Source: a virus. From it: DNA of 31,432 nucleotides. A program made the translations under genes and the position numbers. Shown here piece by piece: positions 14,876-19,487 of this stretch. The stretch lies in the IMG/VR virus record IMGVR_UViG_3300005253_000180, positions 1 through 31,432 of that record, one strand, 5' to 3'. Position 1 is the stretch's first letter. Each line of letters begins with the position of its first letter. Below the pieces are notes generated by a model. That model did no database searches. It saw only the letters and a program-made list of their open reading frames with translations, and was not told the DNA's origin.

Positions 14876-15727
14876 TTAGTTGCGATATAACACCTGGTCA
14901 AGAGTTCCTTTGTTATCCGCATCAGGAATATAACGGAATCGCACCCATCTAATACTTCCAGTAAAGTTAAATGCTTCAATACCTGTAAAAGTACAATCTG
15001 GATCTGGTGTATTACCAAATTCGTGAAACGTAAAAAACTCATTGAGTTTAATCTGGAACCAATCGTTTACATCAGACATTGGATTTTCTTCTAAGCTGCC
15101 TTCAGCAAAAAATTTGCCAGCAAAATCAGTCGTGTATACCGCTATAGTATGTAATCCATTACTTTCACACAATAGAGCATCGCCTGGTTGTGCTCCTGAA
15201 ATAAATTCTGTTGGCGTTGTAGTTGGTGGCGCAATATTTACCGGAGTAAAATCGCTCCCTAAAAGCCTTATACTTTCTACCAAATCCGGAAGAACTCCCT
15301 CGATAAGCTCAAAAAATCCAGCAGCATTATGATCACGATCAGTAAACAAAAGATTTGTTGTTCCGTCCTCATTTTCAACAAGAATAGAATACTTGTAGAA
15401 ACTAGCTTCAAGATCGGACAGTTCAAGAGGGGTAAAAGTGACACGAATATGCCCTTTGTGTGGGTCAATTGGTTCTACTTGCTTTTGTAAAACTGGAGTG
15501 CCACTGAAAAAATTTATCACAGTCATTGTTAAACATTTTCCAATCAAACTTACACGTTTACGATCATTATCTCGCACAATAAATTCTATAGGATTATGAG
15601 CGCCGCGGTATATACGAAAATCACTATCTCCAAAAGGCATATTATTATTCCCTATTCCATGGTCTATAGATGTCAGATGGATAACCTGTGGAAAACTAAA
15701 AAGTTTAACTGTATTTCTACCTGCCAT
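14876..15727 (-). CDS. Probable virion/baseplate protein
   Basis: 283 residues. Residues 35-150 are beta-rich and read FRIYRGAHNPIEFIVRDNDR, SLIGKCLTMTVIN, GHIRVTFTPLELSDL and FYKYSILVENEDG. This resembles the immunoglobulin-like N-terminal domains of phage baseplate or fibre adaptor proteins (BppU_N-like pattern). The C-terminal half is a second beta-rich domain (TDFAGKFFAEGSL, GSIRWVRFRYIPD). No membrane segment. It has its own late-type motif at 15790-15797 and stands alone between early genes. The structural role is inferred from composition and promoter class. Confidence 0.68.
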   Translation of the reverse strand: MAGRNTVKLFSFPQVIHLTSIDHGIGNNNMPFGDSDFRIYRGAHNPIEFIVRDNDRKRVSLIGKCLTMTVINFFSGTPVLQKQVEPIDPHKGHIRVTFTPLELSDLEASFYKYSILVENEDGTTNLLFTDRDHNAAGFFELIEGVLPDLVESIRLLGSDFTPVNIAPPTTTPTEFISGAQPGDALLCESNGLHTIAVYTTDFAGKFFAEGSLEENPMSDVNDWFQIKLNEFFTFHEFGNTPDPDCTFTGIEAFNFTGSIRWVRFRYIPDADNKGTLDQVLYRN

Positions 15728-15764
15728 AATCTAACGATCCCTAAAACTAAATAAAACTGTTGTT

Positions 15765-15772
15765 TATAAATA
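15765..15772 (+). promoter_or_regulatory. Consensus T4 late promoter (TATAAATA), plus strand
   Basis: Exact TATAAATA in the context TTATAAATAC, 30 bases before the ATG at 15803. It forms a divergent pair with the minus-strand motif at 15790-15797. Confidence 0.6.
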
Positions 15773-15789
15773 CAACCAGTTAACAATCA

Positions 15790-15797
15790 TATTTATT
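15790..15797 (-). promoter_or_regulatory. T4-late-type promoter motif, minus strand
   Basis: Minus-strand AATAAATA (context CTAATAAATATG), 62 bases before the ATG of the virion gene at 15727. Confidence 0.45.
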
Positions 15798-15802
15798 AGA
15801 AA

Positions 15803-16183
15803 ATGACTCCAGAAGAATTTGAAATTTTAAATAAAAAGCATCCATACCTTACGTATGTCAAATTCTACGAGACAGAAATCATCGGTATTATCCAAAATAT
15901 AGATAACCAAATGGTGAGTATCTATGACTATGGAAATATCACTAATAACGAACTGAAAAAGAAATTTGTTGATCTAGGCAAGCTCTGGTGGGAAGACAGT
16001 AATCAAAAAATACCAATAAACATTTTTCTACGAGAAGACTTCCTTATTTTCAGAAAAACATTAAAATGTTTACCTAAAAAAGATGTTAAAGAATTATGGG
16101 GTCCCACTTTAAGCTTAGAAGAGAATTTTCAGAAACGAATTAAGAGAAGAAGAATTCAACTGATAAGAACAGACGATAAGTAA
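15803..16183 (+). CDS. Small hypothetical protein on the plus strand
   Basis: 126 residues beginning MTPEEFEILNKKHPYLTYVK and ending with a basic helix (FQKRIKRRRIQLIRTDDK). The middle is mixed alpha/beta (IIGIIQNIDNQMVSIYDYG). No known family. A consensus TATAAATA lies 30 bases upstream. The 3' end overlaps the convergent minus-strand gene by 28 bases, so both stop codons lie inside the opposing gene. Confidence 0.68.
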   Translation: MTPEEFEILNKKHPYLTYVKFYETEIIGIIQNIDNQMVSIYDYGNITNNELKKKFVDLGKLWWEDSNQKIPINIFLREDFLIFRKTLKCLPKKDVKELWGPTLSLEENFQKRIKRRRIQLIRTDDK

Positions 16184-16368
16184 ATTTCCCCACCAAATTT
16201 TTTAGAGAATTTTTCAGCATCTTCCTTTATCGGCGAAAAAAAATAATAAGTTTCATCATTATACAGAATGGCCCATCCCGGACTACTATTTTTTGCTGCC
16301 CATTCTTGATAATAATCAAACCATTTATTTTCTTCTATTATAAACTTAACTCGATATTCTTCTGTCAT
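16156..16368 (-). CDS. Divergent eighth member of the small paralogue array
   Basis: 70 residues, MTEEYRVKFIIEENKWFDYY. It keeps the helix-strand-strand-helix layout of its neighbours (WFDYYQEWAAKNS, then WAILYNDETYYFFSPIKEDAEKFSKKF), but the final AFKLRW is replaced by KFSKKF plus a 10-residue tail. The 15 bases around its start are identical to those at the start of the gene at 16547. It is last in the operon and overlaps a convergent gene. Function unknown. Confidence 0.68.
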   Translation of the reverse strand: MTEEYRVKFIIEENKWFDYYQEWAAKNSSPGWAILYNDETYYFFSPIKEDAEKFSKKFGGEIYLSSVLIS

Positions 16369-16379
16369 TTATATCCACC

Positions 16380-16547
16380 TTAAAATAGTAACCAAATTGA
16401 AAACACTATAGTCCCCCAAAACACTAAATTAACAATTTGATTTAGAAGTGCCTGTAGCCATTCAGGCACTTTACTATTTTTGTCATAAAAAAACACATGC
16501 CAAAATAAAGCACCAGGTACATGGTAAAGGCCAATTAGCATATCCAT
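16380..16547 (-). CDS. 55-residue membrane protein inside the paralogue array
   Basis: Reading frame MDMLIGLYHVPGALFWHVFF, then a short charged loop (YDKNSKVPEW), then NQIVNLVFWGTIVFSIWLLF at the C terminus: two hydrophobic segments, so a small membrane protein. It begins directly after the stop of the paralogue at 16548 (TAA then ATG), with AGGTGG as ribosome-binding site. It lacks the array signature, but its 3' flank carries the same GGTGGATATAAATG that ends the preceding paralogue. No family recognised. A tiny holin-like or exclusion-type protein is possible. Confidence 0.65.
   Translation of the reverse strand: MDMLIGLYHVPGALFWHVFFYDKNSKVPEWLQALLNQIVNLVFWGTIVFSIWLLF
16446..16471. repeat. 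Perfect 9-base inverted repeat inside the 55-codon gene
   Basis: AAGTGCCTG and CAGGCACTT around an 8-base loop. The plus-strand reading is followed by TACTATTTTTG, so it could weakly terminate plus-strand transcripts from 15803. The minus-strand reading has no U-run. Confidence 0.45.
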
Positions 16548-16811
16548 TTATATCCACCTCAACTTAAAAGCCATCGCAGTGGCTTCATCTTTAAATCCCC
16601 ATATTAAATGTGAAGTATAACCAACGTGAACCCAAGATGTTGCATCGACATTATCAACAAGCCAATCGGTCATTATCTTAGCATCAATTTCCTCCCAAGT
16701 CCTTACCATCGCAAAATAAATAAATCCTTTTATAGTGATATATTTGTTCAAACCACCTTTATCATCTCCACAACAATAACTGAGATCATCTATTCCATGC
16801 AAAAAGATCAT
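16548..16811 (-). CDS. FKLRW-array paralogue 7
   Basis: 87 residues. C-terminal half: MTDWLVDNVDATSWVHVGY, then LIWGFKDEATAMAFKLRWI at the end. It shares with its neighbours a W[IL]..N helix, two short strands and the terminal AFKLRW. The N-terminal 40 residues (MIFLHGIDDLSYCCGDDKGG) are not shared. ATG follows the previous stop (AGTTAAATG) with AGGTGG, which encodes Arg-Trp of the previous protein, as ribosome-binding site. No family name known to me. Confidence 0.78.
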   Translation of the reverse strand: MIFLHGIDDLSYCCGDDKGGLNKYITIKGFIYFAMVRTWEEIDAKIMTDWLVDNVDATSWVHVGYTSHLIWGFKDEATAMAFKLRWI

Positions 16812-17216
16812 TTAACTCCACCTCAATTTAAAAGCAACTGCATCTTCTTCATCTTTAAAATAAAAAAGCCACACAATATCAAAAAATTGTTGGCCACTAG
16901 AACCATTGTTCTGATAAGTAGAACCACCATAACAATCAAGTGTATCAGTAGAAATATCAAAACTCCAAACACCAGTTGTATTTTCATGTATCCAATCTAT
17001 TCTTTTTTCTATTTTTAACCCTTTTATTACACCAATACTAAATTTATGTTCTGATGTTCCATATTTAAATCTTTCAAATCTGCCGCCAGCAAAATCAATT
17101 TCTTCTTCTGTAATCTTAAAAATAGGTGTATAAGATGGCTTATCATAGCCATCCCATTCTCTAACTATGAGATAATTGTAACCCAAATATTTTCTGGCGT
17201 CTATACTAATACTCAT
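16812..17216 (-). CDS. FKLRW-array paralogue 6
   Basis: 134 residues from the ATG at 17216, which overlaps the preceding stop as ATGA. The GTG two codons earlier lies within the ribosome-binding site and is unlikely. The longest member: an N-terminal region of about 75 residues (MSISIDARKYLGYNYLIVRE) precedes the shared domain RIDWIHENTTGVWSFDI, then LFYFKDEEDAVAFKLRWS. A Gly/Ser/Asn-rich insertion (GGSTYQNNGSSGQQ) separates the shared strands. Codons AGG TGG at the end provide the next gene's ribosome-binding site. Confidence 0.78.
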   Translation of the reverse strand: MSISIDARKYLGYNYLIVREWDGYDKPSYTPIFKITEEEIDFAGGRFERFKYGTSEHKFSIGVIKGLKIEKRIDWIHENTTGVWSFDISTDTLDCYGGSTYQNNGSSGQQFFDIVWLFYFKDEEDAVAFKLRWS

Positions 17217-17446
17217 AACCACCTCAACTTAAAGCCTACTGCATCTTCTTTATCTTCAAAAGCCATTGTACAATAGTCTATTAATAACCATTTTCTTCTT
17301 GAATTTTCATTGTTCCATTCTTCAATAGCAAAATATTTTGGTAACGATATGTTAGGAAATTCTACTGTATGTGGATATTTTTTTCTTCCAAAAAGTCCCA
17401 TCCAATAGAAAAAACTATTCCAAGTAAGTATGCTTTTATTTGTCAC
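17213..17446 (-). CDS. FKLRW-array paralogue 5 (GTG start)
   Basis: 77 residues. The likely start is the GTG at 17446, overlapping the previous TGA as GTGA with GAGGTGG just upstream. Two other in-frame GTG/GTC codons lie before it. Shared domain: AIEEWNNENSRRKWLLIDY, then MAFEDKEDAVGFKLRWL, with Gly replacing the usual Ala before FKLRW. The N-terminal 35 residues contain aromatic and Trp residues (LTWNSFFYWMGLFG). Function unknown. Confidence 0.76.
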   Translation of the reverse strand: MTNKSILTWNSFFYWMGLFGRKKYPHTVEFPNISLPKYFAIEEWNNENSRRKWLLIDYCTMAFEDKEDAVGFKLRWL

Positions 17447-17787
17447 GACCACCTCAACTTAAAAGCAACAGCATCTTCTTTATAATAAAAATCAAAACAA
17501 CGATGCATATGTGAAAAATATATTTTAGGAGTGAGATTCAAATTTTCATGAATCCATTTCTTTGCTTCTTTTGGATCAGTATCTATCATAACAGTCGTAT
17601 AAGGAAGTCTTTTTCTTCTTTCCGTTCCAGTTAAGCCGACCCATAACCAACTAGACCCATAATAAAAAGGAGAGGGCAACCCAAATGCTTCTGCTATCTT
17701 TATTGGACCTATTTGTAATAGATAAATTAATTGAACCGTTACACGGCCAATAAAATAATCTAAGTAGGGTTTTTTTATTATATCCAT
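17443..17787 (-). CDS. FKLRW-array paralogue 4
   Basis: 114 residues. The ATG at 17787 is formed inside the AGATGG codons that encode Arg-Trp of the preceding paralogue, so the two genes overlap by 10 bases. The N-terminal 60 residues are partly hydrophobic (TVQLIYLLQIGPIKIAEAFG). Shared domain: AKKWIHENLNLTPKIYF, then CFDFYYKEDAVAFKLRWS. A start further downstream cannot be excluded, as no good Shine-Dalgarno is visible. Confidence 0.75.
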   Translation of the reverse strand: MDIIKKPYLDYFIGRVTVQLIYLLQIGPIKIAEAFGLPSPFYYGSSWLWVGLTGTERRKRLPYTTVMIDTDPKEAKKWIHENLNLTPKIYFSHMHRCFDFYYKEDAVAFKLRWS

Positions 17788-18047
17788 CTTAACTTAAAAG
17801 CTACAGCATCCGCTTCCAGCTTGAAAAAATAATGACTGGCGCCACGTATGCTTGCATACGCAGACCATTTATCTTGAACAAACTCATCAATATCTCTTAA
17901 ATCTATGTGATGTTCTGTTGGTAGAATTATTTCGTATGGTAATACTGCTAGCAATTGCGGGCGAAGACTATATGTATTATCACTAGAAAATTTTTCTCTG
18001 TCTTGCCAATTTACATATTTTTTAAAAACGGGACTTTCTGTGACCAT
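17778..18047 (-). CDS. FKLRW-array paralogue 3
   Basis: 89 residues. The ATG lies inside the AAAATGG that encodes Lys-Trp of the preceding paralogue, giving a 37-base out-of-frame overlap. Shared domain: IDEFVQDKWSAYASI, then YFFKLEADAVAFKLRWI. The usual W[IL]..N is replaced by EFVQDK. The N terminus is unrelated to the other members (MVTESPVFKKYVNWQDREKF). Function unknown. Confidence 0.75.
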   Translation of the reverse strand: MVTESPVFKKYVNWQDREKFSSDNTYSLRPQLLAVLPYEIILPTEHHIDLRDIDEFVQDKWSAYASIRGASHYFFKLEADAVAFKLRWI

Positions 18048-18262
18048 TTTAATTCAAATGCTTCCGCATCTCCCCTTGTTTGAAACCAACATCCAGATGT
18101 TTTCATAACGTATCTTTTCTCACAGTTTTTTTTACACCATCTACTTGCTTTCTTTTTAGACTTACTATTAAAGTCATCCCCATGTACTACATAAAAACCA
18201 AATTCTTCTTTAGTACCTTTTTTATCAATTGACAATTCCAGAAATACAAATGCCAAAATCAT
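18011..18262 (-). CDS. FKLRW-array paralogue 2, with C-terminal read-on extension
   Basis: 83 residues. Shared domain: KASRWCKKNCEKRYVMKT, then CWFQTRGDAEAFELKW, here followed by 10 extra residues (SQKVPFLKNM) instead of a stop within two codons. The extension runs out of frame through the start of the next gene, which suggests a lost stop codon. Two Cys in WCKKNC match the WCEQNC of paralogue 1, so these two are the closest pair. The start TAA-A-ATG directly follows the previous stop. Confidence 0.75.
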   Translation of the reverse strand: MILAFVFLELSIDKKGTKEEFGFYVVHGDDFNSKSKKKASRWCKKNCEKRYVMKTSGCWFQTRGDAEAFELKWSQKVPFLKNM

Positions 18263-18263
18263 T

Positions 18264-18575
18264 TTACAACCATCTTAATTTAAAAGCCGCTGCATCTGTT
18301 TCTAAAAAGAAATAAATTTTATCTGTAAAATATGTTCCCATAGAATAACCTCTTTTTATTTCATACGCAACTGCGTCTTGACAATTTTGTTCGCACCATC
18401 TTTTTATCTGTGCATGTTCTTTAAAGTCTCTTGGCATATCGAACATATATTTTTTGCCTGTTATCCATATTATTGGGGCTGGATCAATATAACCTTTCTT
18501 ATTTTTATCTTCCCCTCCAAAAAGATGGAAACCAGGCTGTGGATCGAATTCATTTGTATCTTTTGTTTCTGTCAT
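18264..18575 (-). CDS. FKLRW-array paralogue 1
   Basis: 103 residues, first gene of the array, starting as ATGA over the stop of the DnaE-like gene. Shared domain: QIKRWCEQNCQDAVAYEI, then KIYFFLETDAAAFKLRWL at the C terminus. The N-terminal half (MTETKDTNEFDPQPGFHLFG) is unique, with a PAPIIWITGKKYMF stretch. Membership in the same transcription unit as replication-type genes suggests early expression. Function unknown. Confidence 0.77.
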   Translation of the reverse strand: MTETKDTNEFDPQPGFHLFGGEDKNKKGYIDPAPIIWITGKKYMFDMPRDFKEHAQIKRWCEQNCQDAVAYEIKRGYSMGTYFTDKIYFFLETDAAAFKLRWL

Positions 18576-19165
18576 CTTGCGTCTTCCACTATCAGATTCA
18601 TTTGAACAACTATTCCTATTGAATATGCGACGGCATGAGGCTTTTTAAAGAAATTCTTACCATATCCTTTGTCACCAATCTGTGGCTTCTCCCATACTGT
18701 TTTAGCTATCTCTGACCAAGATTTGTTTTGTAAGTGTCGCTTGGATGGTCTAATAACACCAAGAAGCATAGCAAGTTCGATGATACTCCTTGGTTTCATT
18801 TTTTTAACAATATCAAAATGATCGTGTATATGCCACAGTTGTTCAACAAAAAACTTATCATCGAGCATCTCCCAAATAGGCTCTTGTCCCATTAGTTTTA
18901 GAAGGTGTCCTTCACTCCTTACTCCATTGTATAAAGAAACGTTTAGAAAATCTACTTTAAAATAACCGCGATTTTCTGCCTCATCTGTGGTTATAGTTGT
19001 TAGGCCTGTTATTGGATCACTTGGGACATCTTGAAAATAAACTCCAACGTTGTGTGGTCGCACGTTGCCTGCGTCATCAATCATAGCTGCTCGTGTATAA
19101 TCAAGTCCCGCTAGAGCTAAATCTCTATCAGAAAAATCAATGTCAATATCAGGGGTTTTTTTCAT
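18572..19165 (-). CDS. Miniature DnaE-like (C-family polymerase palm/fingers) protein
   Basis: 197 residues from the ATG at 19165 (MKKTPDIDIDFSDRD), one base after the previous stop. An earlier start would overlap the upstream gene by 56 bases. Hallmarks of the bacterial Pol III alpha core occur in order: PDIDIDF (Asp6/8/10; palm acidic pair), PHNVGVYF (38-44; cf. HA.GVV), GYFKVDFLNV (Asp72; third palm Asp), MLLGVIRPSKRHL (cf. ALYRPGP) and FFKKPHAVAY (173-181; cf. KSHAAAY). It lacks the PHP, beta-binding and OB regions and most of the length. It may be an active mini-polymerase, a regulatory decoy, or a repurposed fold. Confidence 0.72.
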   Translation of the reverse strand: MKKTPDIDIDFSDRDLALAGLDYTRAAMIDDAGNVRPHNVGVYFQDVPSDPITGLTTITTDEAENRGYFKVDFLNVSLYNGVRSEGHLLKLMGQEPIWEMLDDKFFVEQLWHIHDHFDIVKKMKPRSIIELAMLLGVIRPSKRHLQNKSWSEIAKTVWEKPQIGDKGYGKNFFKKPHAVAYSIGIVVQMNLIVEDAR

Positions 19166-19166
19166 A

Positions 19167-19487
19167 TTAAGGCTTGTCCATCTTATTGACAAGACTCTCT
19201 TCAACGATAGTAAGGCCCGCATCTAATTTTTTAATGACTTCTGTCAACTTTTTTATATCAGTTAATGCTCTCTGTAAGTCAGTCTTACTTTTTTCATGTT
19301 CTCGAACTAATTTTTGATAGGCATTCATGGACGGCACTTGGTAACGTGTCCCTTCTTGTAGTATGATCACAGTATCAAATCCCGTTTTTATGTCTATTGT
19401 TTCTCTTGCTTTAGTTTTCTTTTTATTTTTTCCACCAGAATACATTATTGCTATTTCTTCGGAGGTAAGAGTACCATCTTTATTCAT
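19167..19487 (-). CDS. Coiled-coil hypothetical protein
   Basis: 106 residues. A basic N-terminal part (GGKNKKKTKARETIDIKTG) and a beta stretch (FDTVIILQEGTRYQVP) lead into a predicted coiled coil from about residue 55 to the end (YQKLVREHEKSKTDLQRALT and on). ATGA overlap with the zinc-finger gene upstream. It sits between the zinc-finger protein and the DnaE-like protein in the early operon. No family recognised. Confidence 0.68.
   Translation of the reverse strand: MNKDGTLTSEEIAIMYSGGKNKKKTKARETIDIKTGFDTVIILQEGTRYQVPSMNAYQKLVREHEKSKTDLQRALTDIKKLTEVIKKLDAGLTIVEESLVNKMDKP

Follow-up and report, generated by a model that had tools for sequence, protein, structure and literature searches.

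The window, the whole of a 31,432-base virus contig (IMG/VR virus record IMGVR_UViG_3300005253_000180), carries T4-type replication genes encoding UvsX, a DnaB-like helicase, a primase and a DnaE-like polymerase piece. Among these, on the minus strand at 16548-18575, lie seven back-to-back open reading frames (ORFs), here g1 to g7, whose products share a C-terminal module of ~55 residues that contains the stretch DAxAFKLRW. We describe this array as a local branch of a large family of small proteins that appears to be restricted to phages, and we consider the possibility that the family serves as a swappable repertoire of one-domain binders.

An initial annotation had reported seven consecutive genes with the same end. 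The genes are borne out by an independent profile, described below, but the ends are not all identical: six of the seven close with FKLRW, one further residue and the stop codon, while g2 reads FELKW followed by 11 residues. This tail exists because the stop codon of the g2 orthologue in a close relative, locus L005, is missing in g2, which for the same reason overlaps g3 by 37 nucleotides (nt); the ATG start of g3 overlaps the W codon of the g2 motif. Lengths had been given as 77-134 residues; counted from the first possible start they are 79-136, with several starts ambiguous by 6 nt. For g5 a second GTG at 17446 would give a 4-nt overlap, and for g6 an ATG at 17216 would give 134 residues and a 4-nt overlap with the g5 stop. 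The N-terminal halves, said to be mutually unrelated, are indeed very divergent, but g4 and g5 show a weak match (E 0.003) in the stretch that leads into the module. An eighth gene, g8, had been counted as a member that lost its motif. Its predicted fold has the family order of elements plus a last strand, but its sequence match is borderline (E 0.0085 and 0.95 with two profiles, hhalign probability 17%) and is not significant against the profile built without the window and L005 (E 0.95); g8 is a possible distant relative of the family.

Table 1. Genes of the array slot and its bounds in the window (aa, amino acids).
Feature	Position	Strand	Description
g1	18264..18575	-	103 aa; end DAAAFKLRWL; profile E 1.8e-9; L005 orthologue 78% identical
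g2	18011..18262	-	83 aa; end DAEAFELKW + 11-residue tail; profile E 1.8e-5
g3	17778..18047	-	89 aa; end DAVAFKLRWI; profile E 4.9e-7
g4	17443..17787	-	114 aa; end DAVAFKLRWS; profile E 1.4e-10; no L005 orthologue
g5	17213..17452	-	79 aa from first GTG; end DAVGFKLRWL; profile E 1.3e-7; no L005 orthologue
g6	16812..17222	-	136 aa from GTG; end DAVAFKLRWS; profile E 3.1e-9
g7	16548..16811	-	87 aa; end TAMAFKLRWI; profile E 2.9e-12
g7b	16380..16547	-	55-aa hydrophobic ORF in the g7/g8 gap; outside the family (E 0.46 and 24)
g8	16156..16368	-	70 aa; lacks FKLRW; L005 orthologue 80% identical
DnaE-like polymerase piece (phrog_11778)	18572..19222	-	upstream bound of the array slot; start probably 19165
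126-aa gene	15803..16183	+	opposite strand, downstream bound of the slot; overlaps the g8 end; kept in L204, L207 and L260

The label 'DnaE-like' comes from reading the sequence; the PHROGs name is DNA polymerase.

Membership was tested with a profile of 386 members from which the window and L005 had been left out, using a nominal database of 1000 sequences. All of g1 to g7 were found, with E-values from 2.9e-12 (g7) to 1.8e-5 (g2), and reversed ORFs gave no match below 0.1. The pattern DAxAFKLRW and its coupled variants match in dozens of IMG/VR contigs, most of them metagenomic fragments. An iterated family profile, remade with its trimming held constant because the first version had begun to drift after four rounds, collected 704 ORFs (651 distinct) at 128 loci, several of which can lie on one contig. 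Three of the four viral pattern scans demanded the coupled end, so the collected set is biased towards coupled genes, and uncertain ORF starts in GC-rich contigs have inflated some lengths.

Searches of whole records (E <= 0.01) found 90 copies in 417 kb, 87 in 266 kb, 76 in 462 kb, 76 in 436 kb, 66 in 608 kb and 53 in a 75-kb contig. Among isolates, Sinorhizobium phage Phosso (735 annotated features) has 52 matching places and Pseudomonas phage Paride three matches at the same threshold; Agrobacterium phage Atu_ph07 has five weak ones, and Pseudomonas phage PA5oct carries a few copies. Ten of the 12 unrelated control phages (phiKZ, T4, G, S-PM2, P-SSM2, HTVC008M, phiM12, CcrColossus, RaK2 and XacN1) gave no match, and the other two gave weak partial matches only. 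A 33-base pattern run against 85,000 genomes of bacteria and archaea (257 billion bases) returned four hits, about the number estimated by chance; all four, from bacterial genomes, were rejected as members. The family thus appears to be phage-restricted. Its carriers are mostly large and T4-related: of 23 records with members, 19, among them all three isolates examined, have a T4-type gp23 match above the cut-off, although in several records it is a short N-terminal match only. In several carriers there are ORFs of 113-192 aa whose match to T4 Gp23 is confined to its first ~45 positions, sometimes beside a full gp23 (for example G001:C1:451487-451666, G009:C1:176017-176145 and G018:C1:252116-252265); they are candidates for split capsid genes or for proteins with a capsid-targeting N-terminus. 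At Phosso 96459-97743 (L018:19661-20945) three members stand directly before an annotated DnaE-like DNA polymerase III alpha gene, echoing the arrangement in L005; this gene has no blastp match to that of the window at E 1e-5.

The initial annotation knew no name for the family, and the libraries offer none. Pfam, NCBIfam and PDB sequences gave no family match for the window proteins or 115 members, PHROGs gave no consistent match (one stray hit, E 0.008, among the 115 members), and the array nucleotides matched no phage record. Profile searching, which had been proposed as the check, likewise reached no well-characterised family and placed the members in phage arrays with very divergent upstream parts. 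Single-protein tblastn matches, including one in Dickeya AD1 inside a tail-region gene, were set aside as chance; consensus queries worked better. We found no description of the motif or the family in the literature searched. The family is new to every library tested, probably because its members diverge so fast; as a kind it is already known, since other small, fast-evolving phage genes have also expanded in particular lineages.

The largest arrays occur in three giant phages, where members make up 42 of 57, 35 of 50 and 40 of 55 predicted genes in 18-kb stretches laid out as two convergent arrays. Adjacent pairs in these super-arrays share an in-frame 4-nt NTGA stop/start overlap in 47 of 100 cases, a rate taken from whole arrays and not from the set collected by the coupled-end pattern. 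Since members are strung together by such overlaps, they are probably produced together from one message. Where the convergent arrays of two of these phages meet (L259:9261-9704 and L262:7263-7706) lies a 147-aa gene, 78% identical between the two, that by eye looks like an M15-type peptidase.

The initial annotation had taken a promoter class as a sign of early expression. We find nothing to support this: promoter-like sites were fewer than in shuffled sequence (21 versus 30.5), and neither the promoter nor the late-promoter scan rose above chance. As the start of g1 shares 4 nt with the stop of the DnaE-like gene ahead of it, the array need not have a promoter of its own. The position of members among replication and tRNA genes is only suggestive of early expression.

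Turnover is best seen against L005, whose flanks are 84-88% identical to those of the window. There g1, g2, g3 and g8 have orthologues, g4 to g7 are replaced by three different members, and two L005 members before the polymerase gene are cleanly absent from the window. L204, L207 and L260 keep the slot, from the polymerase gene to the divergent 126-aa gene, but fill it with varying numbers of members; g6 and a protein at the same locus in L204 are 26% identical over 103 aligned residues (E 6e-8). Among 80 loci with the same polymerase gene, most have no member nearby. The ratio of nonsynonymous to synonymous substitution rates (dN/dS) for the window-L005 orthologues of g1 to g3 and g8 is 0.25-0.60, versus 0.08-0.13 in most core neighbours. 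In the three giant phages matched members have a median identity of 35-37%, versus 78% for the peptidase-like gene (one matched pair), and there are no close paralogues or recent duplicates within the three super-arrays. The members are real, selected proteins that change fast, at two to five times the rate of most core genes, under purifying selection, and that are exchanged as whole genes. The array surroundings gave no hint of homing or diversity-generating elements, although no search was aimed at such elements.

Two further features of the slot may be recorded. Small hydrophobic, possibly membrane proteins lie within the array in both the window (g7b) and L005 (L005:3136-3336, 66 aa), differing in place and sequence. 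At the far slot boundary the 126-aa gene forms a conserved divergent pair with a gene for a 254-295-aa protein, phrog_14467 in the window (window 14876-16183; L204:6943-8203; L207:7739-8936; L260:14708-16087).

A common fold had been put forward as a check on the shared module. An AlphaFold model of g7, built with 115 family rows, has a strand at 32-37, a helix at 41-54, strands at 60-64 and 68-73 and a helix at 76-86; the other rows are family segments, so the common fold is partly assumed. Mean predicted local distance difference test (pLDDT) values by block are 88-95 from residue 41 on, and the first 30 residues, with extra strands upstream, are uncertain. The module is thus predicted to be β-α-β-β-α, ferredoxin-like without the last strand, with FKLRW as the closing helix. 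The model of g8, from two sequences only (mean pLDDT 70), is β-α-β-β-α-β; set against the definition of the ferredoxin-like fold (β-α-β-β-α-β with a four-stranded sheet), the g8 model has all six elements and the g7 model lacks the last. From helical spacing, A, F and W of the motif would lie on one side of the helix and may pack on the sheet, and the missing strand would leave a sheet edge open to a partner or to an upstream strand.

Structure comparison gave the g7 model only weak PDB matches, of the common split β-α-β kind. The best had a VIA Z of 6.0 over 57 residues, and values below 8 may mean only a common arrangement; no chain reached Z 8, an absence that is not itself evidence. Ferredoxin-like domains such as an EF-G domain, ACT domains and the designed LHD29 (6wmk) share the order of elements and the size of the module, but they have no sequence relation to the family and possess the last strand that its members lack. 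In a viral library the structural neighbours are uncharacterised small phage proteins, several of them from Atu_ph07.

Our favoured explanation, to which we give a probability of roughly 45%, is that the array is a local branch of a phage-restricted family forming a swappable repertoire of small one-domain binders against host or competitor proteins. The FKLxW stretch would mainly lock the fold, and the missing fourth strand would leave an open sheet edge for a partner or for the variable upstream segment. Each paralogue might bind a different host or competitor protein and so block or redirect it. On this view the dozens of members in a large T4-related phage would be a repertoire of binders, replaced as targets change. 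The slot between core replication genes stays where it is, and the genes in it come, go and are replaced entire. What is seen directly is the distribution, the coupling and the turnover, and the fold is predicted; from these we infer targets and action.

Several points weigh against this explanation. The ferredoxin-like fold is generic, being compatible also with nucleic-acid binding, ligand sensing and structural roles. Four neighbours outside the family also have dN/dS of 0.21-0.30, so that part of the fast evolution belongs to small accessory genes as a class. PADLOC hits among members are sporadic and chance-like, PADLOC being a collection of defence, not anti-defence, proteins.

Close to the initial annotation, which proposed a docking domain joined to variable effectors, is an adaptor role in which all members would attach through the FKLxW end to a common machine (such as a host protease, RNA polymerase, the ribosome or a phage hub), to which their variable upstream parts would deliver different targets. 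No other part of the family is nearly as well conserved as the last helix, its K is nearly invariant and need not be buried, and the motif lies within a few residues of the C-terminus in nearly all members. On the other side, the motif sits inside the predicted fold, a tail follows the module in at least 14 members, and the residues before the module, with a median of ~30, number at most 15 in 13% of members. Because the shortest members (49-65 residues) have almost nothing before the fold, many members have no separate effector domain to dock. Only three internal second modules were found at E < 0.01, and since at least one of them looks like two adjacent genes fused through loss of a stop, we conclude nothing from them. 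The conserved C-terminal module stands, and docking is possible for longer members, but as an account of the family we think the adaptor role unlikely, though it is the best placed of the alternatives.

It is less likely again that the targets are not host proteins but the other paralogues or co-infecting phages, the members forming, for example, mixed oligomers that sense or exclude rivals. Dozens of co-produced paralogues with an apparently open sheet edge would suit such a role, as would the missing recent duplicates and the fast change between relatives; host targets fit these observations equally well.

A third possibility, which we regard as improbable, is that the codons of the conserved end are kept mainly for the next gene's ribosome-binding sequence, for start overlap or for exchange homology, and that the proteins matter little. 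The R-type motif codons TTG AGG TGG include GAGGTG, which resembles a ribosome-binding sequence and lies directly ahead of the overlapping start, and AGG is commoner in coupled genes (35 of 63, versus 19 of 64 uncoupled; p 0.004). The last 33 nt of window and L005 paralogues have a median identity of 70%, versus 39% and 30% further upstream, and synonymous motif codons are somewhat more alike within most genomes than expected. The F and K codons are nevertheless freely mixed (TTT 105 and TTC 103; AAG 124 and AAA 84), FKLTW ends lack the ribosome-binding-like sequence, and orthologue dN/dS is below 1 over the whole protein. The codon mixing, together with the retention of the motif where genes are uncoupled, indicates that its conservation is mainly at the protein level. 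Least likely of all are small head or decoration proteins of the virion, diversified for packaging or surface display. Large phages such as Atu_ph07 do carry more than 100 virion proteins to which no function is assigned (PMC6102473), but in Phosso the members group near genes for tRNA and nucleotide metabolism, outside the tail-gene cluster, and in the window they lie among replication genes.

A fuller form of the binder repertoire, which we find rather doubtful, joins these elements into a cassette-built system of giant T4-related phages. Tens of one-domain binders per genome would be encoded in units whose last-helix codons double as the start signals of the next gene, permitting in-frame swaps and co-expression and yielding lineage-specific sets of inhibitors of host and rival proteins.

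Elsewhere in the window, at 1048-2151, a 367-aa protein resembles PHROG families named 'regulator of chromosome condensation' (best E 1.5e-49, five stretches); tail-fibre-like genes adjoin it.

Known systems share parts of this picture. T4- and T7-like phages have very small, clustered, fast-evolving early host-takeover and anti-defence proteins, mostly encoded by unrelated single genes; the genes described here are similarly small, clustered, fast-evolving and accessory, but one family fills whole arrays. Poxvirus ankyrin-repeat proteins comprise many paralogues with a variable N-terminal part and a C-terminal F-box-like docking motif, the same layout in another large virus; they are not homologous, and the conserved end here looks, in the model, like part of the fold. 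Of published cases, the zinc-ribbon expansion of Bacillus phage G, with ~35 copies (Iyer et al. 2021, PMC7824862), comes nearest: there too a small protein of a giant phage has multiplied in one lineage. That expansion has a zinc-binding fold, whereas the FKLxW family has no conserved cysteine set, occurs in many phages and reaches ~90 copies; the phage G record contains no FKLxW member.

The copy number of the FKLxW family exceeds that of the largest phage paralogue expansion that we found described (~35, phage G, PMC7824862). Most genes of giant phages have no known function, and the family gives a common handle on a sizeable share of these dark genes. Cultured carriers are at hand for functional tests, namely Phosso and, with a few copies, Paride and PA5oct. 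If the members do form a repertoire of binders, natural inhibitors of bacterial proteins would be available from it.

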